This document shows positions 15,204 to 41,271 of a stretch of DNA of 46,661 nucleotides, one piece after another. This stretch comes from Bacillota bacterium (GTDB lineage: Bacteria > Bacillota > Clostridia > Saccharofermentanales > Fastidiosipilaceae), in the NCBI GenBank assembly GCA_030057555.1, contig JASGUU010000086.1:1-46661 (forward strand), written 5' to 3'. The notes beneath the pieces were generated by a model. It made no database searches and was not told the origin of the DNA. It was given only the letters and a program-made list of their open reading frames with translations. The first letter of the stretch is position 1. Each line of letters starts with the position of its first letter. Both the position numbers and the translations under genes were made by a program.

Positions 15204-18200
15204 CTAGCGATCGGCGATGCCGAGCGGGCGGCCTTCGTAGTCCATCGTGTTGACCGGCGTGATGACGCCGTTGTTGATGCGGCAGACGGTCCAGAGCGTG
15301 CCCTCCTGATTCGGCACAGCGAACTCCTGCGACGTGCCGTCGGCCAGATAGATCGTGACGCGGGCGCCGGACCGGGCGAGACCGTAGGAGTCGGCCATCA
15401 GCGCCAGGTTGCTGAAGTCGTGCACGAAGAGGGTGTAGCTGCCGCTGTTCCAGTTGCGCAGGGTCAGGGTCTCGGGGCCGTTGCCGTCCTTGTCGTCGAG
15501 ATCAATGGTGACCTCGGGTGCGCCCTCGGGACCCGAGGAGGGATCGAAGGGCCAGACGTGGCAGGCACTGCCGTCCGGCAGCGTGCCGGTCAGGTGGATG
15601 TCGAGATCGTCGGGTGCGTCGCCCCAGGTCAGCACAATCCGCGCTTGACCCGTGGCCAGCTGCGGCACCATCGGCACATCGAGCGTGACAGTCTCACTGG
15701 CCCGGACCGTTACACTGGCGACGCCGTCCTGATAGGCCGGCGAGCGTCCCACGAGGGTGTAGTCACCGGCGGGCAGGTCGACAGAGAAGAGGCCGGCGTC
15801 CTGCTGGGTATTGCCGCTCCTGAGCTCGGTGACGAGCTCGCCTGTGGGGTTATTGAGACCGCGGCGCACCTCGACGGGCGTGTCCATCATCATGCAGCCG
15901 TCGCTGGCGTCGACCACGCGACCGTCCACACGGCCGTTCGCGGCCGGAGGCTGGGTGGTCGTCGGTGGCGGCTGCGTCGGCCGCGGTGTCGGCTGCGGCG
16001 TTGGTGACGGCTGCGGCGGTGTCGGCCGCGGTGCCGGATCGACGACTTCCGGCGGTCCGGGGTAGTCGCCGGGGCCGTCAATGACTTCCTCCGGCGGCAG
16101 CTCGGGCCGCTGGCCGGTGAAGGCATAGGTGACCGCATCGCCGGCATTGATGACCGGTATCAGGTTGGTGCCGTCGGACGTGAAGACCGTGGTCTCATTC
16201 ATCAGGATGGAGCGCACCTCCGCAGCGGTCAGGGAGGGGTTGGCGGCGTAGACCAGCGCCGCGGTACCGGCCACCATGGGCGACGCCATCGAGGTGCCGC
16301 TGTTATCGCCATAGGTCGCATTCGGGTAAGTACTGAAGATCTTCGTGCCGGGTGCGGCGACATCAATGCCCGCACCTATATTGGTGAAGTTGCTGAGCGC
16401 GTAGCCGCGGCGGATGCGCGGGTCATTCCAGTTGGACAGGGAAATAGGTGTGTTTTCGATCGAGGCGACGATCAGGGTGTGGCGACGAGCGGGATCCGTG
16501 CCGGTCATGATACGGTTCATCTCAAAGGCGTGGGAGTCCGCACCTTCTTCGTTGCCCGCGGCCTTACAGATCAGGAAGTCGTAGCCTGCCTGCTCAAGGC
16601 GCAGGCAGAGATCGCCAAAGGCGATGGTCTGCTGTATCTCATCACGGCTTCCGGGGTCGCTTGGTCTACGTTCGCCCACACTGTAGTTCAACACACGACA
16701 GCCCTGTTCGACCATCGTCGTAATCGTAACCTCAAGCTCAAAGATAGTGGAGCGATTCGAGAAAAGCAGCTCACCGGTATTGGGGCTGATATCCATATGC
16801 CAATAGTGGAAGAAGTGCAGCTCGGGACTCCAGTGGACGCCTGATATGCCCTCTCCGTTGTTGCCGATAGCGCCGACGGTGCCGGAAACGTGGGTGCCAT
16901 GAGCCAGATTCCCATAATAATTTGAGCCGGGTGAGCGGTCGGCCTTTGCATAAAAAACTTCAATATCGGCGATGGTCTGAACGGTGTGGGTTGGGAAAAA
17001 ATAGATTCTGGAGGGATCGACCTGCAGATCCGGATGCGAGTATTCGATGCTGCCGTCCGCCACGCCGACGGCAACCGGCTTCAGGTCACGGTTTCTGGCC
17101 CAGGCGCGCGGTGCCTCGATGACCTCGTAGTTCCAGTTGTTGCCGTCGGGATTCTCGAGGCTCCAGCTGTCAAAGCCGCTGTCATTCGGAAATACCGTGA
17201 GCTCCTCATAGTTATGAACATAATTGGGGTGTACCAGCGCGACATTCGGTTCACTCTCTATCATGTTGCGGATGTTTTCCACTTCACTTTCCGGGAGATT
17301 GAAGCGCAGCTGATATTTGTCGATGACCGGGATTTCACCGACGATTTCAGCGTTGTGTCGATAGGCGAGCTGCTCGGCGACACTGCGCGGCGTGCCCGGC
17401 GTCAGACTGACGAGCAGTTCGTTTGTGACCAACCTTCTGCCGTCACCGGTATCACGGATACGGTCCGGATCGGGCGGCGAAGCGAAGGCGGAGGCAAACT
17501 GCAGGTTGAAGGCCCGCGGCTCGGAGAAGCCGAACAGGGTGTCGGCGACGACATAGAGCATGTGGTTCCCGACGCGCGGATCGAGACGGGCGCGGTTGAA
17601 GGGACCCGGGTTGCGGGCGCTGTCGTTGATCGGGTCATCGAGGACAACGTTTCTGAGCTCGCCGTGCTTGTGGAACCAGGAGCCGCTGATGTCATCCAGA
17701 ACATCGTAGGCGTCGATGTTGTTGGGATTGGTCGGGTTCAGCGAGTAGCGGATGCCGCGGATCAGTTGATTCGCGCTGACATCGAGCTCGAGCGTGCCGA
17801 GGTTGCCGTCCAGCGTCTGGGTGCGGCCGCTGAGGCGGATGTCCGGCCGCAGCGGGAAGGAGAAGATGAGAAAGGCGATGAGGGCGATGACGAAGATGCC
17901 GCCGAGAATCCAGGCCACCAGATAGCGTGCCCGGCGCTGGGGGCCGTGAACAGCCGGTCGTGGCGGCCGCGGCGGTCGCGGCGGTCGCGGCGGACGCGGG
18001 GGACGCGGGGGCCGGGGCGGCGTCTGCTGATACGGCTGTTGAGGCGGCGGCTGCTGATACGGCTGCTGAGGCGGCGCCTGCTGATACGGCTGTTGATACG
18101 GCTGCTGGGGCGGCGCCTGAGCCTGCGCGGCAGGCGCACCGCACTGAATGCAAAACTTTGCTCCATCCGGTATCGTGTGACCACAACGCTGACAAATCAT
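15204..18200 (-). CDS. Second membrane-anchored zinc-ribbon S8 protease (paralogue)
   Basis: 998 residues with the same plan as its neighbour: zinc ribbon (CQRC at 3-6, CIQC at 17-20); Pro/Gln repeats and a PPRPPRPPR stretch (about 25-82); a membrane helix (about 93-114); a propeptide; and an S8 domain with Asp382 (VADGSIEYSHPDL), His434 (AHGTHVSG), Asn550 (AAGNEE) and Ser637 (NSGTSMASP). A Pro/Thr linker, one carboxypeptidase-regulatory-like module (about 756-845) and a YfaP-like module (LTWGDAPDDLDIHL) follow. It has one beta module where the paralogue has two. AGGAGG precedes the ATG. The substrate is unknown; maturation of envelope or surface proteins is a reasonable inference. Confidence 0.88.
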   Translation of the reverse strand: MICQRCGHTIPDGAKFCIQCGAPAAQAQAPPQQPYQQPYQQAPPQQPYQQPPPQQPYQQTPPRPPRPPRPPRPPRPPRPPRPAVHGPQRRARYLVAWILGGIFVIALIAFLIFSFPLRPDIRLSGRTQTLDGNLGTLELDVSANQLIRGIRYSLNPTNPNNIDAYDVLDDISGSWFHKHGELRNVVLDDPINDSARNPGPFNRARLDPRVGNHMLYVVADTLFGFSEPRAFNLQFASAFASPPDPDRIRDTGDGRRLVTNELLVSLTPGTPRSVAEQLAYRHNAEIVGEIPVIDKYQLRFNLPESEVENIRNMIESEPNVALVHPNYVHNYEELTVFPNDSGFDSWSLENPDGNNWNYEVIEAPRAWARNRDLKPVAVGVADGSIEYSHPDLQVDPSRIYFFPTHTVQTIADIEVFYAKADRSPGSNYYGNLAHGTHVSGTVGAIGNNGEGISGVHWSPELHFFHYWHMDISPNTGELLFSNRSTIFELEVTITTMVEQGCRVLNYSVGERRPSDPGSRDEIQQTIAFGDLCLRLEQAGYDFLICKAAGNEEGADSHAFEMNRIMTGTDPARRHTLIVASIENTPISLSNWNDPRIRRGYALSNFTNIGAGIDVAAPGTKIFSTYPNATYGDNSGTSMASPMVAGTAALVYAANPSLTAAEVRSILMNETTVFTSDGTNLIPVINAGDAVTYAFTGQRPELPPEEVIDGPGDYPGPPEVVDPAPRPTPPQPSPTPQPTPRPTQPPPTTTQPPAANGRVDGRVVDASDGCMMMDTPVEVRRGLNNPTGELVTELRSGNTQQDAGLFSVDLPAGDYTLVGRSPAYQDGVASVTVRASETVTLDVPMVPQLATGQARIVLTWGDAPDDLDIHLTGTLPDGSACHVWPFDPSSGPEGAPEVTIDLDDKDGNGPETLTLRNWNSGSYTLFVHDFSNLALMADSYGLARSGARVTIYLADGTSQEFAVPNQEGTLWTVCRINNGVITPVNTMDYEGRPLGIADR

Positions 18201-18432: not shown

Positions 18433-20910
18433 ATGGCAGATAGACTTGAAAGGGAGAGAGACGGCGCGGGTTCTCCGTCTGTGGCCGCTCTTCTCGAGGG
18501 ACTGAATCCCGAGCAGCGCGAGGCGGTCCTGCACGATGAGGGGCCGCTGCTGATTCTCGCCGGGGCGGGCTCGGGGAAGACACGTGTCATCACGCACCGC
18601 ATCGCCTGGCTGATCAGGGTCCGTGGCGTCAGTCCCTGGGCGATTCTGGCGATCACCTTCACGAATAAGGCTGCCGCCGAAATGAAGTCGCGCATCGCCG
18701 ACCTGGTCGGACCGGTGACCCGGAGCATGTGGGTTGGTACCTTCCACTCCATGTTCGTCCGCATTCTGCGCCGCCACCCGCTGGAAACGGGATACTCGAA
18801 GAGCTTTGCCATCATCGACACCGACGATCAGCGCGCTCTGGTGCGCGAAATCATGCGCGATCTCAACGTCGACGAGAAACTGTTTGCCGTCAATGCCGTC
18901 CACGGAGCCATTTCACGGGCGAAGAACCGCATGCAAAGCGCGGCCGAATACCGTGATCAGGCGGGTGCGGACTTCCGCCGGCGTCAGATTGGCGAGGTCT
19001 TTCTGCGCTACCAGGAGCGCCTGCACGCGAACGACACCATGGATTTTGACGACATTCTGGTCGAGACCGTACACCTCTTCGAGCGCCATCCCGAGGTTCT
19101 GGCGGCCTGGCAGGCGCGCTTCCGGTATATTCTGGTCGACGAATACCAGGACACCAACCTCGCCCAGTACCGCGCCGTCCGCCTGCTCGCGGCGGCGCAT
19201 CGCAACATCTGTGTCGTTGGCGACGACGACCAGTCCATCTACAGTTTCCGCGGGGCCGATATCCGCAACATCCTCGAGTTCGAGAAGGACTACCGTCAGA
19301 CCAGGGTGATCAAGCTCGAGCGCAACTACCGTTCGACGGGGACGATTCTGGCCGCGGCAAATGCCGTGATTGCCAACAACGGGTCGCGGAAGGAGAAGAA
19401 GCTGTGGACCGATGCCGGGGAGGGAGAGCAGATCACCTTTCTCCGGGCGGCCGATCATTTCGAGGAGGCACGCTTCATCGCGACCGAGATAGAGCGCCAT
19501 GTGAAGGACCATGTCGGGCATCACTGGCGCGATGTCGCAGTGCTCTACCGTGTCAACGCACTCTCGCGTTCAATTGAGCTCGGTCTGCGCGAGCGCGGCA
19601 TTCCCTACCGCATCCATGGCGGGCTGCGCTTCTATGACCGGCGGGAGATCAAGGACGTTCTGGCCTATCTGCGTCTGATCCAGAACCCCGGTGACGACCT
19701 CTCGCTGACACGGGTGATCAATGTACCGAAGCGCCAGATCGGACTGGTGACGCAGGAGGCGGTTCGCAGTCTCGCACAGCGCGAAGGACTGACGATGTTA
19801 GAAGTCTGCCGCCGGGCCGGCGGTTATCCGGAACTGCGGCGTTCGGCCGGGCGCCTGCTGGGCTTTGCCGCCCTCATCGAACAGCTGCGCCGGGATCTGG
19901 CAGCTTCGGATCTGACACTCCTCGAGTTTGTCGAGCATGTGGTCGACAGAAGCGGTTTGATGGACGAGATTCTGAATGCCGGGGAGAAAAACCGCGAAGA
20001 CAGCGTCGAACGCGTGCAGAACCTGCGCGAGCTCGTCTCCGATGCCGGGGAGTTTGAAAGCAGCTTTTCCCTGATCGGCGAGCCGGAGGAGGGTGCGACG
20101 CTGGAGCTGGTCACCGACGAGGACGGCGGCGAGACGCTCGCAATCCGGCTTCCGGAGGGTTCCGATGCGGCGGAAGCCGACGCTGCGATTGACCTCGCCG
20201 TACTGCTCGAGGGCTTTCTCGAACGCGCCACCCTCTATTCGGCGCAGGATCTCACCGACGAGAATGATGACCATGTGCGCCTGATGACCATCCATGCGGC
20301 GAAGGGGCTGGAATTTCCGCTGGTTTTTCTGGCCTGTGCCGAGGATGGCATCTTTCCGGGACGGCAGGCGATGACATCGCCGGCGAGCCTCGAGGAGGAG
20401 CGACGTCTGGCCTATGTCGCCATCACCCGGGCGAAGGAGAGACTTTATATCACGACGGCCCGCTCGCGCATGCTCTACGGCTATGTGCAGGCTCAGCCGG
20501 TATCGATGTTTGTGAATGAAATCCCGCTGGCGTACATGCGCCAGATCGGGGGAGCGGCGGACGATGTCGGCCCGGGAGCGGCTGGCAGTGCCGGCGCGGC
20601 GGGACAGGAACCGGTCCGGGGCCGGCGTCCCTCCGGAACGGGGCGTCAGCCGGGCTTCGGGGTTTCACCGGTTTCCTTTCTCGAACGACGGGCCGCCCCG
20701 CCGCGGCGCCCGACGCCTGTGCGACGGGCAGTTGAGCCGGATGACTACCGGGTCGGCGGCCGGGTCACGCATCCCCTGTTTGGGCGCGGTGTCATACGCA
20801 GTGTCGAGGCAATTTCAGGGGACGTGATTCTGGAGCTGGATTTCGGCGGCCGAACGAAAACCCTGCTGGCTTCGCAGGCGGATCTGACGCTGGCGGATGA
20901 TGACAGATGA
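18433..20910 (+). CDS. pcrA: ATP-dependent DNA helicase, PcrA/UvrD family
   Basis: 825 residues, superfamily 1A, 3'-5' polarity expected. Visible motifs: Q-motif LNPEQREAV; Walker A AGAGSGKT at 43-50; motif Ia ITFTNKAAAEMK; Walker B VDEYQDTN; motif III VVGDDDQSIYSFRGAD; motif IV ERNYRSTGTIL; motif V/VI MTIHAAKGLEFPLVFLACAEDGIFP and EEERRLAYVAITRAKERL. The C-terminus carries the Tudor-like PcrA domain (GGRVTHPLFGRGVIRSVE), which in related proteins contacts RNA polymerase. GAGGGAG precedes the ATG. PcrA acts in excision repair, replication and removal of stalled complexes. It is followed closely by the HD phosphohydrolase gene. Confidence 0.95.
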   Translation: MADRLERERDGAGSPSVAALLEGLNPEQREAVLHDEGPLLILAGAGSGKTRVITHRIAWLIRVRGVSPWAILAITFTNKAAAEMKSRIADLVGPVTRSMWVGTFHSMFVRILRRHPLETGYSKSFAIIDTDDQRALVREIMRDLNVDEKLFAVNAVHGAISRAKNRMQSAAEYRDQAGADFRRRQIGEVFLRYQERLHANDTMDFDDILVETVHLFERHPEVLAAWQARFRYILVDEYQDTNLAQYRAVRLLAAAHRNICVVGDDDQSIYSFRGADIRNILEFEKDYRQTRVIKLERNYRSTGTILAAANAVIANNGSRKEKKLWTDAGEGEQITFLRAADHFEEARFIATEIERHVKDHVGHHWRDVAVLYRVNALSRSIELGLRERGIPYRIHGGLRFYDRREIKDVLAYLRLIQNPGDDLSLTRVINVPKRQIGLVTQEAVRSLAQREGLTMLEVCRRAGGYPELRRSAGRLLGFAALIEQLRRDLAASDLTLLEFVEHVVDRSGLMDEILNAGEKNREDSVERVQNLRELVSDAGEFESSFSLIGEPEEGATLELVTDEDGGETLAIRLPEGSDAAEADAAIDLAVLLEGFLERATLYSAQDLTDENDDHVRLMTIHAAKGLEFPLVFLACAEDGIFPGRQAMTSPASLEEERRLAYVAITRAKERLYITTARSRMLYGYVQAQPVSMFVNEIPLAYMRQIGGAADDVGPGAAGSAGAAGQEPVRGRRPSGTGRQPGFGVSPVSFLERRAAPPRRPTPVRRAVEPDDYRVGGRVTHPLFGRGVIRSVEAISGDVILELDFGGRTKTLLASQADLTLADDDR

Positions 20911-20926
20911 GGGAGGGACGGAAGAG

Positions 20927-21568
20927 ATGACCGGGATGACGGGTGGCTTCTACGCCATGATCAGCCGCATGCACCTGATCCAGCGCTGGAGCCTGATGCG
21001 CAACAGCAGGGAGGAGAATGTGCAGGAGCACTCGCTGCAGGTGGCCGTGCTGGCCCATGCGCTGGCGCTGCTGCGGCGCCGCCGCCCCGATGCCGCGGAA
21101 ATCCCGCTGCCGGATCCGGAGCATGTGATGGCCCTCGCGGTTTTCCACGACGCATCCGAAATCCTGACGGGCGACATGCCGACACCGATCAAGTACCTGA
21201 ACCGCGATCTCGCCTCTGCCTACCATGTGGCGGAAACGCGGGCCGTTGACCGTCTGCTGGCCATGCTGCCGGCCGGGCTGCGCCCAGACTACGAGCCTTT
21301 GCTGCGCCCCGATCTCGACGACCCGCTCGAAGCCGCCGCCTGGCAGCTGGTGAAGGCGGCCGACCGCCTCGCCGCCCTGAGCAAATGCATCGAGGAAGAA
21401 GCTGCCGGCAACCGCGAGTTCTGTCGTGCCCGTGCCCAGATTGAGGCCCGCCTGGAGACCATGGAGCTGCCGGAGCTGGACATGTTCCGGGAGCGCTTCG
21501 AGGACGACTTCGCCCGCTCTCTGGACGAGCTCCAGACGCTGGTGGAGGGTGAGGGCGACACGGACTGA
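20927..21568 (+). CDS. yfbR: HD-domain 5'-deoxynucleotidase, YfbR family
   Basis: 213 residues. The start FYAMISRMHLIQRWSLMRNSREENVQEHSLQV is characteristic of YfbR, with the first metal His in EHS. The HD pair lies in AVFHDASEILTGDMPTPIKY and the later Asp in KAADRLAALSKC. YfbR proteins dephosphorylate deoxyribonucleoside 5'-monophosphates. The ATG at 20927 was chosen for the GGGAGGG 9 nt upstream; earlier ATGs (20897, 20900) overlap the helicase and lack a site. It lies 16 nt after the helicase stop, so the two are likely one operon. Confidence 0.88.
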   Translation: MTGMTGGFYAMISRMHLIQRWSLMRNSREENVQEHSLQVAVLAHALALLRRRRPDAAEIPLPDPEHVMALAVFHDASEILTGDMPTPIKYLNRDLASAYHVAETRAVDRLLAMLPAGLRPDYEPLLRPDLDDPLEAAAWQLVKAADRLAALSKCIEEEAAGNREFCRARAQIEARLETMELPELDMFRERFEDDFARSLDELQTLVEGEGDTD

Positions 21569-21928: not shown

Positions 21929-24109
21929 ATGAGAGTCAGGCGGAAGCGGGCCTTTGCCCTTATCCTTCTCATAACCCTGCTGCTGGCACCGCTGGGAGAG
22001 CTCGGAGCGACTGCCGGTCCCTATTACTATCGTGTTCGTCTCAGCTGGGCTGATGCAGCGTCGCAGAAGGGCGCTTTTGTTATCCTGCAAAACGCCATCA
22101 ACATGGCTTCCAGTCTGCCGGGTTATAAGGTTTTTGACGAGGAGGGCAGGGTTGTCTGGCCCGAGGAGGCGACTGAGCCGCCCGAAACCACGCCGATCAG
22201 TCCTGAGGATATCGACCTTTCCCGGCTGACGCCCGCCCTGCGCGACGAATACCATGCTGCACTGACTGCACTCACGGCCGCCAGAGAGGCGGTGACAACG
22301 GCCGACAACAAGCTGCGCAGTTACGGTGGCGTACCGGTGCTGCCGGGCGACTACTACGAAAAGCGTGAATGGCTCGACAGACTCAACGCCGGCGGGACAC
22401 CGATCCAGGCCGCCACGGTCAGATACCATAATCTCTACAACATTGGCACCACGCCTGATACGTCGCGTGTCGACGGTGCCAGAATCAACGGCACCGTATT
22501 CGCCATGGGGGAGAAGGTCAGTGATCCCGCTCTGCGCGAACGCTATCGCCTGCCCTGGACGAGTTACGAGCGGGCGGCGACCGGCGGTGCCATCTATATC
22601 CGCGAGCGCTTCATCGACCGTGGTCAGGACACCAACTATTTCCAGAAATTCAATGTGGCCCATGATTCGCAGACCCCTCTGTGGCACCAGTACATGCAGG
22701 GCATACAGGCTCCCTGGTCGGAGTCGCGGCGGCTTTATGCCGCCTACGCCAACTCGAATACCCTGTCGGGTGAGATATTTTTCGAAATTCCGGTCTTCCC
22801 AGGCCTGCCGAACGCCGATCTGCCGCAGCGGGCCCCGGGCGGAGGCGCAGCTGCGGAAGGAGAGGACGGGACAGCTGCCGAGATGCCGACCGGCTCCGAA
22901 TTCCCGTCCGGAGAGACGGAAGCGTTGGGCGAAGAGCCGGCAGCCACGATAACGGAGGCAGCGGAGCCTGCCGACCCGGAAGCGACCGGGACGCCGGACA
23001 GCCCCGCCGAAGCCTTATCACCGGAGACAAGCGGTGTCGCTGTGCGTTCCGTCCGTTCGCAGCCGCAGACGGACGAGAGCACGATGGGAGAGACCGAGCT
23101 CTTCCCGGGTCAGCTGCTTTCTCCGGTTGACTATTCACAGCTCGACGCTGCCCGCGACGCGGTCTTTATCGGTGAGCTGCAGCAGTTCCCGACCAGCTAT
23201 CATGAGGCGCTCATCGCGCTGCACCTGTCGTACCCGCAGTGGCGCTTCATCGCCGTGCCCGCCCGGGATACCTGGGACAACATCGTGCTTGAGCAGATGA
23301 CGCCGCGGCGCAATCTCATCGAGGACACGCCGGACAATAACGCCGCCGGCTTTGTCGCCAATCATGTTGTCGAGGACGGCTCCAATTTTGTTCAGGTAAC
23401 CCGGAAGGCCGTCGAGTATTACATGGATCCGCGCAACTTCCTGACCGTACCCTACATATTCATGTTTGAGCGCCTGAGTACACTGAGCCCGGCCCAGACC
23501 CTGGCCGGTGTGCAGAAGATCTTTGAGGGCAACAGCGACATGCTGGCCATCGCCCAGATTGTCTTCGATGCAGCCAGGGCGACCAACACCTCGGCCTACA
23601 TGCTGGCCGGCCGCATCCGCATCGAGGTCAGCGAAGGCACGCGCATGGCCAACAACGCCCGCGGAACCATCGACGTCAGGTATCCGCCACTGCGGCCCGG
23701 CGCGGATTCGCTTTCCTTCATGAGCCGCGAGCAGCAGATCGCCGCCCTGAGCGCTTACATCAACGGCTATGAAACAGCCCGCCTGCGCTACGAGCAGTAT
23801 CAGACGGATCTCGCGACCCTACAGACCGCCCGTAGCGCACTCGCCGCCGCCCGGACCCGCTACGATCAGGCCAAAGCCGCCGCGGAAGCCTATCTGGGAG
23901 GATCGCTGCCTCTGGATCCGGGCGACCTCGACGGCAACGGCAGGGTGACAACGACTGACCTGCTGCTGCTGCGTCAGGCCCTCCTCGGCCTGCGCACGCT
24001 GACGGATGCACAGTGCCGCGCCGCCGATCTCGATGGCAATGGACGGGTCAGCACAACGGACCTGCTGATCATGCGCCAGGCTCTGCTTGGCCTGCGCCGG
24101 CTGTACTAG
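21929..24109 (+). CDS. Secreted dockerin protein with a rearranged glucosaminidase domain
   Basis: 726 residues: signal peptide (1-29); SPOR-like segment (31-77, YYYRVRLSW then GYKVFDEEGRVVW); a block matching the C-terminal half of clostridial beta-N-acetylglucosaminidases (about 165-294: YHNLYNIG, GGAIYI, GQDTNYFQKFNV, QYMQGIQAPWSES, FEIPVFPGLP); an acidic/Pro linker (295-400); a block matching the N-terminal half (about 416-570: FPTSYHEALIALHLSYPQWRF, RNLI, YYMDPRNFL, IFMFERLS, YMLAGRIRIEV with candidate catalytic Glu566); a coiled-coil-like stretch (600-655); and a two-repeat dockerin (665-726, DLDGNGRVTTTDLLLLRQAL twice). The halves are in reverse order to the usual family, so the domain appears circularly permuted. 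The next gene encodes a cohesin-like protein, a natural partner. Confidence 0.82.
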   Translation: MRVRRKRAFALILLITLLLAPLGELGATAGPYYYRVRLSWADAASQKGAFVILQNAINMASSLPGYKVFDEEGRVVWPEEATEPPETTPISPEDIDLSRLTPALRDEYHAALTALTAAREAVTTADNKLRSYGGVPVLPGDYYEKREWLDRLNAGGTPIQAATVRYHNLYNIGTTPDTSRVDGARINGTVFAMGEKVSDPALRERYRLPWTSYERAATGGAIYIRERFIDRGQDTNYFQKFNVAHDSQTPLWHQYMQGIQAPWSESRRLYAAYANSNTLSGEIFFEIPVFPGLPNADLPQRAPGGGAAAEGEDGTAAEMPTGSEFPSGETEALGEEPAATITEAAEPADPEATGTPDSPAEALSPETSGVAVRSVRSQPQTDESTMGETELFPGQLLSPVDYSQLDAARDAVFIGELQQFPTSYHEALIALHLSYPQWRFIAVPARDTWDNIVLEQMTPRRNLIEDTPDNNAAGFVANHVVEDGSNFVQVTRKAVEYYMDPRNFLTVPYIFMFERLSTLSPAQTLAGVQKIFEGNSDMLAIAQIVFDAARATNTSAYMLAGRIRIEVSEGTRMANNARGTIDVRYPPLRPGADSLSFMSREQQIAALSAYINGYETARLRYEQYQTDLATLQTARSALAAARTRYDQAKAAAEAYLGGSLPLDPGDLDGNGRVTTTDLLLLRQALLGLRTLTDAQCRAADLDGNGRVSTTDLLIMRQALLGLRRLY

Positions 24110-24130: not shown

Positions 24131-25069
24131 ATGAAGTCCGGATTGCGTTCCACCTTTCGCCGGCTGTCCCTGTTCCTGCTGCTGTGGCTGCTCGTGGGGC
24201 TGTCTGGGCGGCTGCTGGCCTTTCGTGTCGGGCTCAGTCTCACCCTCGAAGCGCCGGGACAGGTCAGTCAGGGTGAGCAGTTTGAAGTTCTGCTTTCAGT
24301 CGATGCGGATGTGGCCGCAGACGGCGGCAGTCTGCTGCTCTCCTATAATTCTGCCTGTTTCCGATATGATGGCACGCAGGCCGGTCCTGACACCAGCGTC
24401 AGTGTTACCGGAGGCGAAGGGCAACTGACACTGGTTTTTGGTCCGATCCCGAGTGGCGGGAAGCGTCTCGCCGTGCTGCTGATGACGGCTCAGGCGGTGG
24501 GCAGCGGCCGCTTTACGATCGAGAACAGCCGCTTTACGGCCGCAGGCGAAGAACTCGGCTCACCGGCGGCCGTGTACGCTTTTGTTGTTGCGGCCGAGAC
24601 GCCCGAGCCCCTGCCCGAACTGCCGACGGCGGCCCCGACCAGGCCCGATAACGGAGTGCCGACTGTGGAGACGGTGAAAGAGCTGCCGCAGGATCTGGAC
24701 GATCCGCTCCTGCCGGGCGACTCCACCCGGACCCGTGACAGCGGGCGCAGTTCCGACGGGATTCAGACGACAGGAACATCCGCTGCCGGAGCGGATGGGC
24801 AGCTGACCGATTCGCCCCTGGCACTGCCGGACGGCCGGACCCTGCGGTCGACCGCGCCCGCGCAACATGAGACAATAGAGGCGGAAGACCCACTGCCGGG
24901 AGATGTTCAAACCGCCCCCAGCCAGTCGCTTACGGAAAACCCGTATGAGGACGAAGAACTGCTCGCACTCGCTCAGCGTCTCGAGCGTATCGTCCCGCTC
25001 ATCCTGATCCCGCTCATCGTGCTGGTGGTCGCGCTGATCATCTGGCGTATCGTCCGCCGCCGTCCCTGA
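24131..25069 (+). CDS. Membrane-anchored protein with a cohesin-like domain
   Basis: 312 residues: N-terminal signal/anchor (about 12-30); a single beta-sandwich domain (about 34-154) resembling a cohesin (SLTLEAPGQVSQGEQFEVLLSVD, SLLLSYNSACFRYD, then LAVLLMTAQAVGSGRFTIEN); a Pro/Thr/Asp-rich linker of about 130 residues; and a C-terminal membrane helix (about 287-308) with a basic tail. Cohesins bind dockerins with calcium. The dockerin gene ends 21 nt upstream, so the simplest reading is that this protein holds the dockerin enzyme at the cell surface. The cohesin call is by pattern (strand spacing, hydrophobic rhythm) and not certain. The ribosome binding site is weak, suggesting coupling. 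Confidence 0.65.
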   Translation: MKSGLRSTFRRLSLFLLLWLLVGLSGRLLAFRVGLSLTLEAPGQVSQGEQFEVLLSVDADVAADGGSLLLSYNSACFRYDGTQAGPDTSVSVTGGEGQLTLVFGPIPSGGKRLAVLLMTAQAVGSGRFTIENSRFTAAGEELGSPAAVYAFVVAAETPEPLPELPTAAPTRPDNGVPTVETVKELPQDLDDPLLPGDSTRTRDSGRSSDGIQTTGTSAAGADGQLTDSPLALPDGRTLRSTAPAQHETIEAEDPLPGDVQTAPSQSLTENPYEDEELLALAQRLERIVPLILIPLIVLVVALIIWRIVRRRP

Positions 25070-25141
25070 GCAACCGGAAACACGGGAAAGTCGTATGATG
25101 TGGGCAGACCGTGCACCCAAGACACGATGGAGGTTCAAACC

Positions 25142-27205
25142 GTGAAACGTTCGTGGAGACGATTGATACCCCTGTTGGGACTGGTCCTTTTCATGACCAG
25201 TATCATGTCACTCTGGGCTCTGCGCCCCTATCTGGCTCATGCAGAAGAGATCGTAGAGCCGCAGCACCGCTTTGAGCTGATCCGCGTGACCCCGGAAGAG
25301 GCTGCGACCGAAGAATATGAGATCTACTTTGTGCCCGATCTGGAGGAAACCGACACAAAGGGTTTCGCTGTCCTCAAATTCAGCCTGGCGGTCAGTGATC
25401 TTGACCTTGAGGAGAGCTGGTTTACAGATCGCCTCGCTCCCACCTGCAATGTGAGTGAGGATAGCCCCGCTCTGACGATTGTCTGGGAAGCCAATACGGC
25501 AGATGACACCACCTATCTTAGAACCCGCACCAAACTGGGCAGGCTGACTTTCGAGCCGGCTGCGGAAAACGGGACGTTCTCTCTGTACGGTGCTGAAGGC
25601 TCGCTCAGCGATCTGACCACGGAGCCGCCGCTGGCGGAGGATGTCATACTTCCCGATACCTCCGTAAGCATAGGCGAATCGACGCCGACGACTTCGACGG
25701 AAGAGACGACGACCGGCGACGGGACCACCGACGACGGGACCACCGACGACGGGACCACCGACGAGGGCTCAACCACGTCCACCGACGAGGGAACGACCGA
25801 CGAGGGCTCGACCACGACCACCGACGAGGGAACGACCGACGAGGAGCCGACCACGGTCACAGAGGAAGAGACCACGACCACCGGGGAAGAAAGCACTACG
25901 ACCACGGAGGAGCCGGGCAGCGAGGAGACGACCACGACGACCGGGGAACCAGGTACCACGACATCAGAGGAAGAGACCACCACGACCAGCGACGAAGAGA
26001 CCACCCCCACCTCTGCGGAGCCGACCACCACGACCAGCGAGGAAGAGACCACCACGACATCCGGGGAAGAGACCACCACGACCGAGGCGCCGGGCACGAC
26101 GACCGAAGAACCGACCCCCACCACGACCGGGACGGATGAAACGACCAGCGAGGAGCTGACGACCACGACCAGCGAGGCTCCGACCACGACCAGCGAGGCC
26201 CCGACCACGCTGCCGACGACCACGCCGACGAGCACCCCGGCGCCGACCACGCCGCCTCCGCCAACCCCGACACCGACTCCTCCGATCGCGACGGCGCCGC
26301 CGCTGCCGACAATTCCGCCCATCCGTCCCTACATCACGCTGATGCTCAGTGACGCGGATCCCAACCGGCGGCCCTATGATGTCTATCATCCGGATGTTCT
26401 CGATGTCCCGGCCGGTTTCAGCGCCATCGAGCGTGAAGCCCCAGAAGGTCTCGTTGAGATCTGGTTCAGCGAATATACCCTGCAGACCCTGCTCTATGCA
26501 GCACCGCCGAACCGCCTGCCAACCTTCCATATCTACGATATGGTCAACGCGAGAGTCTATGACTACTATGCGCCCTTCGAGGCTGTCTTCGACGGGCAGC
26601 GCTTCACGGTCATTCCGATTGACGGCGATGTCCGGGTGCCGGAAACGTTTACGATCCGTGGCCTGCTGGTAGGCGGCAATCCGACCAGTGTCCTCGCCAG
26701 CAACACATATCCGGATGTCTATATCCTGCAGCTCATCAACTCCGAGGGTCGCCGCGGTGTCTATACCTACCGCCCGAATGCCCCCGAGGGCCAGCGGCTG
26801 ACAGAGGGATTGGATGACTTTGCCGCCCCGCTCACAACGACGACAGAGCCGGTTGTGACTTTCAGCAGTGCGGCGGTGACAGACGGTACAGTGATGCAGC
26901 GTCCTCTTGATGAAAAGCAGAATTCCGGGCTGCTGTCCGCTCTCGCCAATGCGCCCCTCGTCCTGATCGCCATCATTGCCTTCATTCTGGTTGCCATCCT
27001 TGTCGTGGTCATCATCCTCATCAACCGCCGTCAGACGCAGACTGCCCGTGTTGAGGATCTGCGCCGCGGCAGCCAGTACGGCAGCGCCTGGCGGGTGGAA
27101 CCGCCGCCCACTGCGCGTCCCCGCAGAACGGTCGGCAAGCCCGGTTCCGATGCCGCGCCGGACGGCCGTACGGAGCGGGGCTTCCAGTCGGACGATCGAC
27201 TCTAG
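25142..27205 (+). CDS. Membrane-anchored surface protein with Thr/Glu-rich stalk
   Basis: 687 residues from a GTG preceded by GGAGGT. It has a signal peptide (1 to about 33, ending AHAEE) and an N-terminal beta-rich domain (about 36-170). A long low-complexity stalk follows (about 177-393) of TTTSEEET/TDEGTT repeats passing into a Pro/Thr stretch. After a second extracellular domain (about 395-575, unfamiliar, starting PYITLMLSDADPNRRPYDVY) come a membrane helix (about 604-630) and a cytoplasmic basic tail of about 57 residues. The N-terminal domain has the size and LGRLTFEPAAENGTFSL pattern of a degenerate cohesin, but this is weak. It follows the cohesin gene by 72 nt on the same strand and probably belongs to the same surface assembly. 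Confidence 0.7.
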   Translation: MKRSWRRLIPLLGLVLFMTSIMSLWALRPYLAHAEEIVEPQHRFELIRVTPEEAATEEYEIYFVPDLEETDTKGFAVLKFSLAVSDLDLEESWFTDRLAPTCNVSEDSPALTIVWEANTADDTTYLRTRTKLGRLTFEPAAENGTFSLYGAEGSLSDLTTEPPLAEDVILPDTSVSIGESTPTTSTEETTTGDGTTDDGTTDDGTTDEGSTTSTDEGTTDEGSTTTTDEGTTDEEPTTVTEEETTTTGEESTTTTEEPGSEETTTTTGEPGTTTSEEETTTTSDEETTPTSAEPTTTTSEEETTTTSGEETTTTEAPGTTTEEPTPTTTGTDETTSEELTTTTSEAPTTTSEAPTTLPTTTPTSTPAPTTPPPPTPTPTPPIATAPPLPTIPPIRPYITLMLSDADPNRRPYDVYHPDVLDVPAGFSAIEREAPEGLVEIWFSEYTLQTLLYAAPPNRLPTFHIYDMVNARVYDYYAPFEAVFDGQRFTVIPIDGDVRVPETFTIRGLLVGGNPTSVLASNTYPDVYILQLINSEGRRGVYTYRPNAPEGQRLTEGLDDFAAPLTTTTEPVVTFSSAAVTDGTVMQRPLDEKQNSGLLSALANAPLVLIAIIAFILVAILVVVIILINRRQTQTARVEDLRRGSQYGSAWRVEPPPTARPRRTVGKPGSDAAPDGRTERGFQSDDRL
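25672..26322 (+). repeat. Coding low-complexity repeats (Thr/Glu/Ser stalk)
   Basis: The stalk region is built of short direct repeats at DNA level, for example GACGGGACCACCGAC in tandem with 15-bp period near 25719-25765, and repeated units around GAGGGAACGACCGAC. Such repeats can change copy number by slippage, so stalk length may vary between strains. The peptide is likely extended and possibly glycosylated. Confidence 0.8.
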
Positions 27206-27207
27206 CG

Positions 27208-27999
27208 ATGAGGGGCCGAACCGGCTGCGGTCGGATCCCCGGTTATGCGGCGTCTGCGCTGGCCTACGCCTGCATTGCCCTGCCCGCTCTGGGCGCGGCT
27301 GAATCACTGAGTTCCGCCCGCATCTATGGCACGAGCGCCCTCGCGGCGCTCGCTGTCGTCGTCCTGCTGGCGGCGGACTTCTTCCGGCTGGGCCGCCCCG
27401 AACGTGTGCTGCTTCTGCTGCTGCGCCTCGGCTGCAGTGCCGGCGGCGTGTTCGTCTCGAGCTACTATGCCCTTGACCGCCTGGATCTTCCGGCTGTGCC
27501 CGTCATTGTCCTGACGGCCGTTCTGCTCTTTGCGGGACAGCTCCTGCTCAGCCGCATTCCGGTCGAGACGCTGCTCTATCTCGTCTTTGGCCTGCTGACG
27601 ACCGTGGTCGCCATCGGTTCGTTCAACCTCGTCAACTGGCTGCTGTACGGCACGATACTGGGCGGCGGCGACAGCTGGGGCTGGTTTGTGCCGAAGCTGG
27701 TGTCGTGGACGGCGGCGGTGCTCTTTGCCTTCTGGACCAATCGGCGCTGGGTTTTCTACGGCCGCGGTCACTGGTTTCGGGAACTTCTGACCTTCGCCGC
27801 CGGGCGCCTCGCGAGCGGTCTGATTATTGAATTTGCCGGGCTCTATGTGCTGGAGAATCTCATCGGAATGCCGCGCGACCTGGCCAATCTCTTGACAGCT
27901 CTCCTTGTCGTTATCGTAAACTATTTCTTTAGCCGCTTTGTGGTGTTCCGCCGTCATGCGGATGAGCGGAGTCCGCGGCGACAAAAGGAGACTCTATGA
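27208..27999 (+). CDS. GtrA-like membrane protein with N-terminal extension
   Basis: 263 residues. The last ~145 residues form a four-helix GtrA domain (LLYLVFGLLTTVVAIGSFNL, AFWTNRRWVF, and the closing NYFFSRFVVFRR). The first ~115 residues add three or four further hydrophobic segments not seen in ordinary 120-150-residue GtrA proteins. GtrA-type proteins are thought to move lipid-linked sugars or related polyprenyl carriers. The ATG at 27208 directly follows the previous stop and has no good ribosome binding site, so a later start is possible. The stop overlaps the folC ATG. Confidence 0.75.
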   Translation: MRGRTGCGRIPGYAASALAYACIALPALGAAESLSSARIYGTSALAALAVVVLLAADFFRLGRPERVLLLLLRLGCSAGGVFVSSYYALDRLDLPAVPVIVLTAVLLFAGQLLLSRIPVETLLYLVFGLLTTVVAIGSFNLVNWLLYGTILGGGDSWGWFVPKLVSWTAAVLFAFWTNRRWVFYGRGHWFRELLTFAAGRLASGLIIEFAGLYVLENLIGMPRDLANLLTALLVVIVNYFFSRFVVFRRHADERSPRRQKETL

Positions 28000-29399
28000 C
28001 GTATGCGGAGGTACTGGTTTATCTCGAGAAAAGCTGGCGCTTTGGCAGCCGGCTCGGCCTCGAGCGCATCCGTGGCCTCTGTGCCGGCCTCGGTGACCCC
28101 CAGACCCGCTATCCGGTGGTCCATGTCGCCGGTACCAATGGGAAGGGCTCAACCGCCACCATGATTGCGAGCATCCTCGCGGCCTCGGGGCGGCGTGTCG
28201 GCATTTTCACCTCGCCCTATCTCGAGCGCTTTACGGATCGAATCCGTGTGCTCGACGGCCCCCGGGACCTCGAGCGTCGCCTCCGGGATTCCGCCTGCGG
28301 TGAGATCACGCCGGACGAGGTCGCCACGATTTTCAGCGAAGTGGTGGCCACCGACAGGGCGAATCAGGCAGCGGGCGCCGAAGCAGCCACCGAATTTGAG
28401 CTGATCACGGCCATGGGTCTCGAGCACTTTGCCCGCAAAGCATGCGATGCCGTCGTTCTCGAAGTCGGCCTCGGCGGAGACCTCGATTCGACGAATGTCA
28501 TCCCGCCTCCGCGCGTTGCCGTCATCACAGCGCTCGGCTACGATCATCAGGACCGCCTCGGAAGCACGATGTACGATATCGCCCGGGCCAAGGCCGGCAT
28601 CATCAAAGCCGGCACGGAGCGCGTCATTCTCTACGATCCCAACGTGGCCGCCGCGACGGCCGGCGACGCCTTCGCCATTCTCGACACCGTCGCCACGCGC
28701 GCATCCCGTCTCGGTGTGCCGCTCGATGTCGTCGGCCGCGAGCTGATCCGTGAGCTCGACAGCGGTCTCGGCGGACAGTGCTTTCAGCTGCGCGGTCTGG
28801 AGGAGCCGTTTGCGATGCGCCTCGTCGGTGAAACACAGCTGCTGAATGCCGCCGTCGCCGTCCATGCCGCCCTGGCCTTCGATCCCGGGCTCGGCCACCG
28901 GCCGGCTCTCCATGACGGCCTGCGCCTCGCCTGCTGGCCCGGTCGCTTCGAACTCGTGGCACGGGGCCCGGATACGATTGTCGACGGCGCCCACAACCCC
29001 CAGGCCATCCGCGCCCTGGTGGACAGCTGCCTGAAGTATCTGGACGGCCGCCCCCTGGTCGTGGTGAACGGTGTGCTGGGGGACAAGGACACCCGGACGA
29101 TGGCCCGGCTCTTCTACGGCGATCGGCGCCTTGATCTGCGGGCGGTGATCGCGACCCAGCCCACGAATCCCCGAGCGCTGCCGGCAGCCGCGCTGGCCGA
29201 CACCATACGGGCTCATCTGCATGACGATCCGGCCCGGATTCCGGTCGAGGTGCTGCCTGGAAGCGGCGCCGCGCTGCGCCGGGCACGCGGGCTGGCCGTG
29301 GCGATCGGGGAGGAGGCTGCCGTGCTGTGCATGGGCTCTCTCTATCTCGTGAGCGAGCTGCGCCCGCTGCTGCTGGAGGCTGCCGATGCGCTGGCGTGA
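27996..29399 (+). CDS. folC: Folylpolyglutamate synthase / dihydrofolate synthase
   Basis: 467 residues, Mur-ligase fold, cytoplasmic. FolC adds glutamate to folates and, in many bacteria, also makes dihydrofolate from dihydropteroate. Visible: P-loop VHVAGTNGKGSTATM at about 42-56; TSPYLERFTDRI; VLEVGLGGDLDSTNV; and ITALGYDHQDRLGSTMYDIARAKAGIIK, with the usual His and carbamylated-Lys region. The C-terminal domain includes GPDTIVDGAHNPQAI. AAAGGAG precedes the ATG, which overlaps the GtrA-like gene. The downstream gene overlaps its end by 14 nt. Confidence 0.93.
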   Translation: MTYAEVLVYLEKSWRFGSRLGLERIRGLCAGLGDPQTRYPVVHVAGTNGKGSTATMIASILAASGRRVGIFTSPYLERFTDRIRVLDGPRDLERRLRDSACGEITPDEVATIFSEVVATDRANQAAGAEAATEFELITAMGLEHFARKACDAVVLEVGLGGDLDSTNVIPPPRVAVITALGYDHQDRLGSTMYDIARAKAGIIKAGTERVILYDPNVAAATAGDAFAILDTVATRASRLGVPLDVVGRELIRELDSGLGGQCFQLRGLEEPFAMRLVGETQLLNAAVAVHAALAFDPGLGHRPALHDGLRLACWPGRFELVARGPDTIVDGAHNPQAIRALVDSCLKYLDGRPLVVVNGVLGDKDTRTMARLFYGDRRLDLRAVIATQPTNPRALPAAALADTIRAHLHDDPARIPVEVLPGSGAALRRARGLAVAIGEEAAVLCMGSLYLVSELRPLLLEAADALA

Positions 29400-30063: not shown

Positions 30064-30086
30064 CAGCTCGAATCGAAAGGATGGCT

Positions 30087-32375
30087 ATGCATTACATCAG
30101 TACCCGCGGCGATACGAGCCGCTTCACGGCCGCCGAGGCCATCTGCCTGGGTCAGGCCCCCGACGGTGGCCTGCTGGTGCCCGAGAGCATTCCGCATCTC
30201 GATGCCGCCGAACTGGAGAAACTGCGCGAGTCGGGCTACAGCGACCGCGTCGCCCTGATCCTGGAGAAGTATCTGACGGATTTCAGCTCCGACGAGCTGC
30301 ACGAGGCCTGCCGCGCCGCCTACGACAGCGGCAGCTTCGACGGCGAGCCGGCGCCGTTGCGGCGCATTAATCCCTACGGCCGGCGTTCCTGGCTGCTCGA
30401 GCTCTGGCACGGGCCCACTGCAGCGTTCAAGGACATGGCCCTGCAGCTGCTGCCGCAGCTGATGGTGCGGGCGGCCCGGAAGCTCGGTCTGGGACGGGAG
30501 CTGTGCATACTCGCGGCAACCAGCGGCGATACAGGGAAGGCGGCGCTTGAGGGTTTCCGCGATGTGCCGGGAACGAGCTGCATCGTCTTCTATCCTGCAG
30601 AGGGTGTGTCGCCGGCCCAGGAGCTGCAGATGCGGACGACACCGGGAGAGACTGTCGCCGTGGTCGCGGTCGAGGGTTCGTTCGACGATGCGCAGCGGGG
30701 CGTGAAGGAGCTCTTTGCCAATCAGGAGCTCGCAGCCGAGCTCGCTGCCCGGGGACGCATGCTTTCGTCGGCGAACTCGATCAACTGGGGCCGTCTCGTC
30801 GCCCAGATCGCTTACTACTGGTCGAGCTATGCCGAGCTGCTGCAGCGGGGCGAGATTACACCCGACGAGGCCGTGAATTTCGTCGTGCCGACGGGTAATT
30901 TCGGCAACATTCTGGCGGCCTGGTACGCGCGGGAGATGGGACTGCCTGTCGGACGCCTGGTCCTGGCGTCGAATCGCAACAAGGTCCTGAGCGATTTCCT
31001 CGGCAGCGGGGTCTACGATCGCCGCCGCGAATTCCATACCACCATCGCCCCGTCCATGGACATCCTCGTGTCCAGCAATCTCGAGCGCCTGCTCTTTGAG
31101 CTGACCGGACGCGATGCCGGACGGGTCGCGGGCTGGATGCAGAGCCTCGCGGAGGAGGGTGTCTACGAGGTCGGCCCGGGCGTTCTGGAGCGCCTGCAGC
31201 GGCTTTTTGTCGGTGGCCATGCGGACGATGCCGCCATCGCCAGGACGATCCGCGATGTCTACGACGAGACGGATCTCGTCATCGATCCGCACACGGCGGT
31301 TGGCTTCAATGTCTACGAGCGCTATCTGCGCCGCTCCCAGGATGAGGCGCCGGTGGTCTTTGTCTCGACGGCGAGCCCGTTCAAGTTTGCCGAGGATGTG
31401 ATGAACGCGCTGACCACGAGCCGGCCCCAGGCCCCTCAGCGTGGCGGGCGCGAGCGGCCGGAAGAAGGACGCAGTGGGCGGCTGCGGCGTGATGAGCGGC
31501 GCCGGGGCGACGAGCGGGGGGAGGGGCGGCGCGCCTCTGCAGGCCGCCGTGGCCAGACGGCTGCCCGCCGTGTAGTCAGCGGCTTCCGCGACGCCGACGG
31601 GGCGATGATCGCCGATCAGAAAGAGTCGGAAACCCAGACACGCAGCAGACGTGGCGGGCGGCGGCGCAGCGGTCGCCAGCGGACCGCCGAGCAGGGTGAG
31701 ACGGCCCCGCCGCGGCCGAAGAAGAGTGTCGAGAAGTCAGCCGCGAAAACCGAGGCTGTCGGGGACGGTGCGCGCGGGGGCAGCAGCCGTCGCCGCGGGC
31801 GCGGGCGGCGGCGCAGCGGTGGTAGCAGGCGCAGCAGTGACAGCGAGAGGCGCTCCGAAGGTCAGACGATGGCGCTGGCAATGAGCAGCGGGGAGCGTCT
31901 GGAACTTGAGATGCGGGGGGATGAGATGCACGTGGTCTATGACAGCCTGCAGGACGCCGGCAATGCGCCTGTGTCCTCCGAAGCCCGGCGCACCGAAGAA
32001 TTCTTCGCGGACCAGCGCGGCGAAACCCTACCGGGTGCGGTCTACGAGGTTGACGAGAGCATTGACCCGGATACGATCGAGCTGCCGGAGACGGATCTCG
32101 ACCGCATGCTGGCCGAATACGCGGCGCTCGCCAGAGAGAAGAAGCCCGATCTCGCGCCGATAGAGGCCCTCGCGGATGAGAGCGGGATGGCAGTTCCCTT
32201 TGGCCTTGACCGTCTGGAGCTGCGCGGCAGACGGCCCTACATCCGCATCAGGCCGGACGAGATGGAGCGGGTCGTACGGGCCCTTCTGCTGGAAGGGAAG
32301 AGCGAGGAAGAGCTTTCAACCGAACCGCCGCAGGAGGAAGCCGGGGAGCTGGAGCCCTGGATCACATCACTCTAG
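30087..32375 (+). CDS. thrC: Threonine synthase with a large disordered insertion
   Basis: 762 residues; ordinary clostridial ThrC has about 495. It converts O-phosphohomoserine to threonine using pyridoxal phosphate. The catalytic domain is complete: MHYISTRG start, cofactor lysine in HGPTAAFKDMA (about Lys115), phosphate loop TSGDTGKAAL, and VPTGNFGNILAAWYA. After ASPFKFAEDVMNAL (about 440) the family normally continues for about 50 residues. Here roughly 245 residues intervene (about 445-688): an Arg/Gly/Ser-rich part (RRGGRRRSGRQR, RRGRGRRRSGGSRRSS) then an acidic part. The expected C-terminus resumes at PIEALADESGMAVPFGLDRL. The ATG at 30087 has AAAGGA at proper distance and gives the family N-terminus. 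A strong terminator follows at 32507. Confidence 0.92.
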   Translation: MHYISTRGDTSRFTAAEAICLGQAPDGGLLVPESIPHLDAAELEKLRESGYSDRVALILEKYLTDFSSDELHEACRAAYDSGSFDGEPAPLRRINPYGRRSWLLELWHGPTAAFKDMALQLLPQLMVRAARKLGLGRELCILAATSGDTGKAALEGFRDVPGTSCIVFYPAEGVSPAQELQMRTTPGETVAVVAVEGSFDDAQRGVKELFANQELAAELAARGRMLSSANSINWGRLVAQIAYYWSSYAELLQRGEITPDEAVNFVVPTGNFGNILAAWYAREMGLPVGRLVLASNRNKVLSDFLGSGVYDRRREFHTTIAPSMDILVSSNLERLLFELTGRDAGRVAGWMQSLAEEGVYEVGPGVLERLQRLFVGGHADDAAIARTIRDVYDETDLVIDPHTAVGFNVYERYLRRSQDEAPVVFVSTASPFKFAEDVMNALTTSRPQAPQRGGRERPEEGRSGRLRRDERRRGDERGEGRRASAGRRGQTAARRVVSGFRDADGAMIADQKESETQTRSRRGGRRRSGRQRTAEQGETAPPRPKKSVEKSAAKTEAVGDGARGGSSRRRGRGRRRSGGSRRSSDSERRSEGQTMALAMSSGERLELEMRGDEMHVVYDSLQDAGNAPVSSEARRTEEFFADQRGETLPGAVYEVDESIDPDTIELPETDLDRMLAEYAALAREKKPDLAPIEALADESGMAVPFGLDRLELRGRRPYIRIRPDEMERVVRALLLEGKSEEELSTEPPQEEAGELEPWITSL

Positions 32376-36621: not shown

Positions 36622-36671
36622 GCGCTCTCTGCATTCCGGCTTCTCTCTGCGTGTTCCTGTCAGGAGGTACC

Positions 36672-41184: not shown

Positions 41185-41271
41185 GCCGGAATCTCCTTTG
41201 TCGCACACCCCTGCCGAAGGCAGGTACAGACAATCAACGACAGAATCAGCGGAATGCGGCCAGACAGTTTC

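Follow-up and report, generated by a model that had tools for sequence, protein, structure and literature searches.

The window analyzed here is a stretch of 46,661 nucleotides from a Bacillota bacterium of the family Fastidiosipilaceae (GenBank assembly GCA_030057555.1, contig JASGUU010000086.1, positions 1 to 46,661), and the gene under study is an open reading frame (ORF) at 21929-24109 on the plus strand, predicted to encode a GH73-type glucosaminidase that ends in a dockerin. The ORF starts with ATG and has 0 internal stops. The first-pass annotation, made from the letters alone, had proposed that the glucosaminidase motifs occur here in swapped order, and we found each of them at its place in the ORF. 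The motifs of the normal domain's C-terminal half (half B) come first, namely YHNLYNIG (residues 166-173), GQDTNYFQKFNV (232-243), IQAPWSE (259-265) and IPVFPGLP (287-294), followed by those of the N-terminal half (half A): FPTSY (420-424), LHLSYPQWRF (431-440), DPRNFL (500-505), FMFE (511-514) and RIRIEV (562-567), which includes Glu566. The C-terminal dockerin of the same annotation was confirmed by PF00404 at residues 664-720 (48.5 bits, cut-off 22.9; with a duplicated Ca-binding repeat), the only Pfam match of the protein above cut-off.

To characterize the order of the halves, we used a reference profile of 319 positions. Its 20 sequences are normal-order relatives that do not belong to the bacterium's family, so that it contains neither permuted proteins nor their closest kin. 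Residues 166-296 matched profile positions 179-313 (4.1e-47), residues 416-580 matched positions 6-172 (1.5e-35), and 0 of 20 shuffles of the protein matched the profile. These complementary matches, together with the empty shuffles, indicate a single, nearly complete copy of the catalytic domain whose halves have changed places. Together the two segments cover one reference a single time, each matching the part that the other leaves, and they do so in reversed order, the pattern that defines a circular permutation. A match of the two halves to unrelated profiles, named at the outset as a refuting outcome, was not seen: both match parts of one profile, and the family it describes matches solved GH73 enzymes.

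The B-A order was found in four genes in four assemblies: that of the window (G000), one of the same genus (G001) and two of a sister genus in the same family (G008 and G011). The permuted assemblies include MAG87_KBP, STF2_99 and Oscillospiraceae bacterium HV4-5-C5C, an isolate from anaerobic digestion (PMC7330241). An assembly or binning artefact, which the draft state of the window's genome (90 contigs) might invite, has a negligible probability, as the same order stands in three further assemblies, one of them an isolate with a 296 kb contig, and the reading frame is open throughout.

Half order is known for the loci that were retrieved and counted. In the first set, for which the half-profiles included the four permuted and four same-family normal-order proteins, all 26 of 26 other two-half loci had the normal order; half-profiles built from normal-order proteins only gave the same result for 37 of 37 class-wide loci (six of which repeat first-set genes) and for 8 of 8 loci in a third set, consisting of seven phage-collection records and a second glucosaminidase gene of the same-family genome G002. 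The four permuted genes thus stand beside 65 of 65 distinct other loci in normal order, and the earlier expectation that the B-A order is not common in the family was borne out by this homologue search. Within the host family, 8 of 12 genomes carry the gene, four permuted and four in normal order. A class-wide profile search of 291 genomes gave 39 matching genomes at 1e-30 with 58 rows: 45 single contiguous matches, six rows for three genes split in normal order, five one-half-only matches whose retrieved loci proved to be in normal order, and two that are the window itself. When the G011 core was run at 1e-27 against 391 genomes of the class, no genome other than the window's was returned; such a search would miss distant permuted genes. 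At the level of the order, at least 168 of 188 genomes matched at 1e-14, with half order read by profile in the retrieved loci only, and a scan of genome contigs yielded only the three other permuted loci. Three protein scans and one DNA-pattern scan of viral contigs found no locus, and a plasmid search gave no match. The phage collection contributed 13 records, seven with catalytic halves, all in normal order, and six that match the small N-terminal domain only. No A-B-A-B intermediate occurs among the retrieved loci, and the titles and abstract openings of the open-licence papers listed for circular permutation in glucosaminidases and related wall hydrolases hold no report of a permuted GH73 enzyme.

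Conservation was assessed in an alignment of 24 sequences drawn from 27 normal-order genes, omitting the second gene of locus L014 and those of L023 and L030 because of irregular gaps or incomplete matches. All four permuted proteins keep 24 of the 25 invariant columns, the sole change being Tyr to Phe, and 39 of the 44 columns conserved at 90% or more. Both halves are under similar purifying selection (omega 0.06-0.10, Nei-Gojobori): half B gave 0.064 for window/G001 and 0.063 for G008/G011, and half A 0.098 and 0.103, the window/G001 values being rough because the synonymous divergence (dS) is near or above 1. The linker gave 0.41 for window/G001 and 0.03 over 18 codons for G008/G011. These values bear on a reading in which the halves no longer form one catalytic domain and one or both merely bind the cell wall as separate modules. 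Such a reading could draw on the linker of up to about 105 residues in the window, and on the fact that closure of the fold is argued from known structures while the AlphaFold lobes are of low confidence, but 24 of 25 invariant columns and a low omega in both halves speak against it, as do the mere 18 amino acids between the halves in G008/G011, and we consider it very unlikely.

The family itself is placed by its similarity to solved structures. A profile of 24 normal-order relatives matched 6u0o (4e-22) and 6fxp (6e-22), both of which we take to be SagB (the structure table labels read "LYZ2 domain-containing" and "uncharacterized protein"), the bifunctional autolysin 6fxo (4e-18), autolysin E (4pi7, 1e-17; 4pi8, 3e-16) and the N-acetylglucosaminidase 5wqw (3e-15); the only further listed match was an antibody chain (0.08). 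The family's invariant Glu was aligned with a Glu of the solved enzymes in the three alignments shown (6u0o, 6fxp, 6fxo), and its column, where the helix that precedes the L-lobe ends, is kept in four of four permuted proteins. In the window it is Glu566, which agrees with the proposal of this residue as the candidate catalytic one. The catalytic Glu of SagB, AtlA-gl and AtlE is named in PMC7170848 and PMC5330529. On this sequence evidence, the gene product is predicted with high probability to be a secreted enzyme of the cell surface that acts on peptidoglycan as an N-acetylglucosaminidase of the GH73 (SagB/AtlE) type, and its catalytic domain to be a genuine circular permutation of natural origin. 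The enzyme probably cuts the cell's own wall.

The features of the gene and its neighborhood are collected in Table 1. The gene order in the window is helicase, yfbR, glucosaminidase, cohesin-like gene, surface protein gene, GtrA, folC (as which we presumably may read the Mur-ligase-type gene), one further gene and thrC. Every gene of this neighborhood is present around the permuted gene of G011. Around the permuted gene of G008, the downstream genes are present and the contig ends upstream. Among the normal-order genomes, G002 has helicase, yfbR, GtrA, folC and thrC, with no ORF of at least 110 residues listed between glucosaminidase and GtrA, and in G005 the helicase immediately precedes the gene, which is followed by a cohesin-like ORF and then by folC and thrC; GtrA found no match at this locus. 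No second glucosaminidase copy was found in the window's genome (96% complete). Given the same helicase-yfbR and GtrA-folC-thrC neighbors, the window gene is the positional orthologue of the normal-order G002 gene. G002 itself (L010, L042) holds two diverged copies, one at the conserved locus and one elsewhere.

Table 1. Features of the permuted glucosaminidase gene and its neighborhood (window coordinates).
Feature	Position	Strand	Remarks
UvrD/PcrA-type helicase gene, upstream marker	18433..20910	+	Pfam, synteny
YfbR-like 5'-nucleotidase gene, upstream marker	20897..21568	+	Pfam, synteny
Predicted permuted GH73-type glucosaminidase with C-terminal dockerin	21929..24109	+	726 amino acids; ORF, profiles
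Small N-terminal domain, about residues 34-77	22028..22159	+	Common to phage endolysins and a LysM cell-wall hydrolase of the same genome
N-terminal helix, residues 102-130	22232..22318	+	Block means of 90-95 pLDDT (predicted local distance difference test) over most of the helix
Half B, residues 164-300	22418..22828	+	C-terminal half of the normal domain, here first; profiles
Acidic linker, residues 301-405	22829..23143	+	Connects old C-terminus with old N-terminus
Half A, residues 412-605	23162..23743	+	N-terminal half of the normal domain and start of the inter-lobe insert, here second; profiles
Glu566 codon	23624..23626	+	Invariant Glu column of the family; aligns with Glu of 6u0o, 6fxp, 6fxo
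C-terminal helices, residues 600-657	23726..23899	+	Begin in old inter-lobe insert (SFMSREQQ...)
Type I dockerin	23918..24088	+	PF00404; sole dockerin found in genome
Cohesin-like neighbor	24131..25069	+	Hydrophobic C-terminal segment (read from sequence); profile against PDB
Second surface-type protein	25100..27205	+	Thr/Glu-rich stretch, hydrophobic C-terminal segment; read from sequence
GtrA-like gene, downstream marker	27208..27999	+	Pfam, synteny
Mur-ligase-type gene, downstream marker	27996..29399	+	Pfam, synteny
Threonine synthase gene, downstream marker	30081..32375	+	Profile match, synteny

Several neighboring features deserve mention in their own right. In the second surface-type protein, identity of the C-terminal part is 78% with G001 and about 35% with G008/G011, and the repeats differ. 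About 315 residues at the C-terminus of the threonine synthase match nothing in Pfam or NCBIfam. Two large tandem subtilases on the minus strand (11635-14994 and 15204-18200) show an odd domain pairing, each combining an N-terminal zinc ribbon (Pfam, above cut-off) with carboxypeptidase-regulatory-like matches. Further downstream, a family 3 glycoside hydrolase frame (38848-41208, minus strand) overlaps plus-strand ORFs, and a neighboring ORF of 698 residues (36552-38648, plus strand) has a cellulase (GH5) match slightly below cut-off. In G001, a breakpoint adjoins the permuted gene (L035, G001:C198:1-5600), with upstream sequence that lacks a match to the window's helicase or yfbR and a conserved downstream side.

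Next, we compared the histories of the two halves. In the separate trees of half A and half B, the permuted group lies beside G003/G010 (Shimodaira-Hasegawa approximate likelihood ratio test, SH-aLRT, 74 and 81), and since both trees give the same nearest kin, the halves appear to share one history. A joint tree of 32 genes (27 normal-order, four permuted and the second G002 gene) places the permuted genes in one group (100/99), joined by G003 and G010 and then by G005. A fission/fusion origin, in which formerly separate genes for the halves, or halves taken from two paralogues, were fused in a new order, would lead to the same final order and could account for the variable linker, which evolves fast between the window and G001 (omega 0.41), and no duplication scar is shown that would speak for another route. 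We nevertheless regard fission/fusion as unlikely, because both halves have the same nearest relatives and the end domains of G008/G011 are placed as in normal-order relatives. No lone half appeared in the retrieved loci, although these were chosen by matches and separate halves may exist elsewhere; the one lone A match, in L012, belongs to a second gene cut by the locus end, and its B half follows. We take as genuine a natural circular permutation of a GH73-type domain in two genera of those searched, with unpermuted orthologues at a conserved locus.

The site of the cut was read from the region between the lobes. Outside the family, 20 of 23 normal-order genes leave 13-18 residues between their two half-profile matches, the three exceptions being the second gene of L014 (39) and the partial A matches of L023 (105) and L030 (77), while the four same-family normal-order genes at this locus have 63-69 residues. 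In G010 the insert starts as ARGGIDPNWPPLFPTSDSLSFMTAEEQ, and ARGTIDVRYPPLRPGADSLSFMSREQQ closes half A of the permuted form; from this resemblance, the new termini lie within the inter-lobe insert. The extent of about 416-570 first assigned to half A holds for its motifs and falls short at its end, as homology runs to about residue 605 and includes the start of the insert. If the tree is right, the insert would predate the permutation. At the other junction, the half-profile matches stand 117 residues apart in the window, 74 apart in G001 of the same genus and 18 apart in both sister-genus genomes (G008, G011). The linker between the halves, described as acidic in the first reading, is indeed so (21 D/E and 3 K/R among the 105 residues 301-405), but it is not a constant part, given the 18-residue gap in the sister genus.

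The flanks and end domains suggest a route. A same-family normal-order profile of 381 positions matches the window protein at positions 199-378 and 3-242, so that the insert region is reached from both ends, and the same holds for G008 and G011 but not for G001 (222-377 and 3-212). Compared with the normal-order insert over 16 pairs each, the C flank is similar (0 to 28 of 500 shuffles reaching the score) and the N flank unevenly so (0 to 115 of 500). In the sister genus, the N-terminal region of G008/G011 resembles the SH3 region of normal-order relatives (8 pairs, 0-2 of 300 shuffles), four of whose proteins are matched by Pfam SH3_3, and the dockerin of G011 is C-terminal, as in G003 and G010. 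With an SH3-like N-terminus and a C-terminal dockerin in place, probably only the catalytic domain was permuted. A tandem duplication of the whole gene would be expected to leave a dockerin and an SH3 domain in the middle of the protein, and an internal duplication fits the domain order better. We infer that the catalytic domain was duplicated internally and its outer halves lost, which explains the architecture directly: a long insert would first arise in the inter-lobe loop, a tandem duplication of the catalytic domain would follow within the gene, and the outer halves would then be lost while the end domains stay in place. Of the two origins considered in the first-pass annotation, a true circular permutation is thus supported, and duplication with loss of the outer halves becomes its favored, still conjectural, route.

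The N-terminus of the window protein has affinities of its own. It shows some similarity to G008 and G011 (0 and 4 of 300 shuffles), and that of G001 does not (52 and 129). The small N-terminal domain, which occupies this end in the window's genus, is 59-67% identical to six phage records. The same domain opens the protein of L002 (G000:C72:9606-12920, ORF 1402-2652), where two LysM domains and a cell-wall hydrolase domain (PF07486) come after it; this protein is 38% identical to residues 8-113 of the window protein.

How the exchanged halves might work is best approached from known structures. In SagB and AtlA-gl, the two chain ends form the R-domain, the middle of the chain forms the L-domain, which holds the catalytic Glu, and the two domains are proposed to slide, closing the cleft (PMC7170848); the R-core of AtlE likewise holds both chain ends (PMC5330529). 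Because the R-domain holds both ends in SagB/AtlE, joining them should cost little. By this analogy, we infer that the two halves together make up a single two-lobed fold like that of SagB/AtlE: the chain ends would be joined inside the R-domain and the loop after the catalytic Glu opened, and packing would remain possible. The R-domain would become continuous and the L-domain, with the catalytic Glu, split, perhaps tied by a coiled coil of the new termini. In both AlphaFold models (window and G011), the long N- and C-terminal helices are confident and most of the rest is unreliable, with moderate confidence at the B-A join of G011, which is flanked by the strands RINFKIPV and WQFTAVS at moderate or low confidence. 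In a structure comparison of the G011 model, stretches from both chain ends align to helical pairs, which suggests a terminal N/C coiled coil; the N-terminal helix is perhaps paired with the C-terminal one, an indirect pairing read from the G011 model only. No autolysin or glucosaminidase was among the 50 matches listed for this model, which is uninformative either way.

The dockerin points to the neighboring gene, which lies 21 bp from the glucosaminidase gene on the same strand. A profile of the cohesin-like neighbor matched NagJ chains in the PDB (2.6e-9 to 1.2e-8), over a stretch that we take to be the cohesin module of NagJ, and weakly scaffoldin C (0.34) and the cohesin 2xdh (0.75). The Pfam cohesin model matched the neighbor family weakly (three of seven members, best 0.0018, the window member not being among the matches listed), and no Pfam cohesin was found in the window's genome at 0.1. 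As the only dockerin found in the genome stands beside a cohesin-like protein, docking at the cell surface is suggested, and the neighbor is likely the dockerin partner. The dockerin would dock the enzyme onto this surface protein, for wall remodeling at the cell surface.

Putting these elements together, we lean somewhat towards a functional GH73 permutation that arose in place within a multidomain gene, in which a prior long insert made the cut tolerable, the R- and L-domains exchanged roles, the split L-domain is clamped by the terminal coiled coil and the cleft motion could change. A number of observations weigh against parts of the explanation given above. The window protein alone matches solved glucosaminidases weakly (0.03), and Pfam PF01832 (Glucosaminidase) has no match at E<=1 to it or to five normal-order relatives, which places those relatives, too, outside that model. 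In G001, G010 and G003 the neighborhood is conserved downstream only, with no helicase or yfbR match upstream (5.6 kb, 11 kb and 2 kb, respectively). The joining of permuted with same-family normal-order genes is not strongly supported (84/70 and 85/54), and all nine same-family genes lie together to the same side of a branch with support of 88/89. Not every gene of the family carries the long insert: the second G002 gene, which lies away from the conserved locus, has a gap of only 22 residues, measured with other profile boundaries. Comparing N and C flanks within the four permuted proteins, 241, 371, 17 and 5 of 500 shuffles reach the score, so that the flanks are not clearly alike (two of four not significant, two weak) and no duplication scar is shown. 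Pfam SH3_3 has no match in the N-terminal region of G011, and that of the window is unlike normal-order SH3 regions (63 to 122 of 300 shuffles; 63 to 283 of 300 over eight comparisons of window and G001 together), so the argument for immobile end domains comes from G008/G011. The AlphaFold models, with four permuted sequences per alignment, have a mean pLDDT of 42 (window) and 48 (G011) with low-confidence lobes, and the structure comparison of the G011 model aligns helical pairs and bundles only. Finally, the proposed cohesin partner is a neighbor with remote similarity only.

The precursors of natural circular permutations often go unseen. Here, one bacterial family has both permuted and unpermuted genes in a shared neighborhood, and unpermuted relatives carry a long loop at the cut site; loop growth, internal duplication and loss of outer halves become testable on real sequences and enzymes. 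The permutation also changes which domain is continuous, and so provides a naturally occurring test case for the sliding of two domains that has been put forward for GH73 enzymes (PMC7170848).

Compared with known systems, close counterparts are the normal-order genes of G002, G003, G005 and G010, which share the neighborhood in whole or part and have their own long inter-lobe insert and SH3 domain, with a dockerin in G003 and G010, and which differ in that half A precedes half B. The GH73 enzymes SagB, AtlA-gl and AtlE of Staphylococcus and the clostridial 5wqw resemble the family by profile similarity along the normal-order domain and by the aligned Glu, whereas the window protein has reversed halves, termini in the loop after the catalytic Glu, a dockerin and extra terminal helices. 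The circularly permuted NlpC/P60 proteins (YaeF/G6R, LRAT-like) are a natural permutation within a wall-hydrolase superfamily (PMC6403190), but with a papain-like fold and another cut than the window enzyme. In the saposin/swaposin pair, duplication and loss is likewise the proposed route of a natural permutation (PMC3320104); the case described here differs in that it concerns a catalytic domain, inside a multidomain protein, at a conserved locus.

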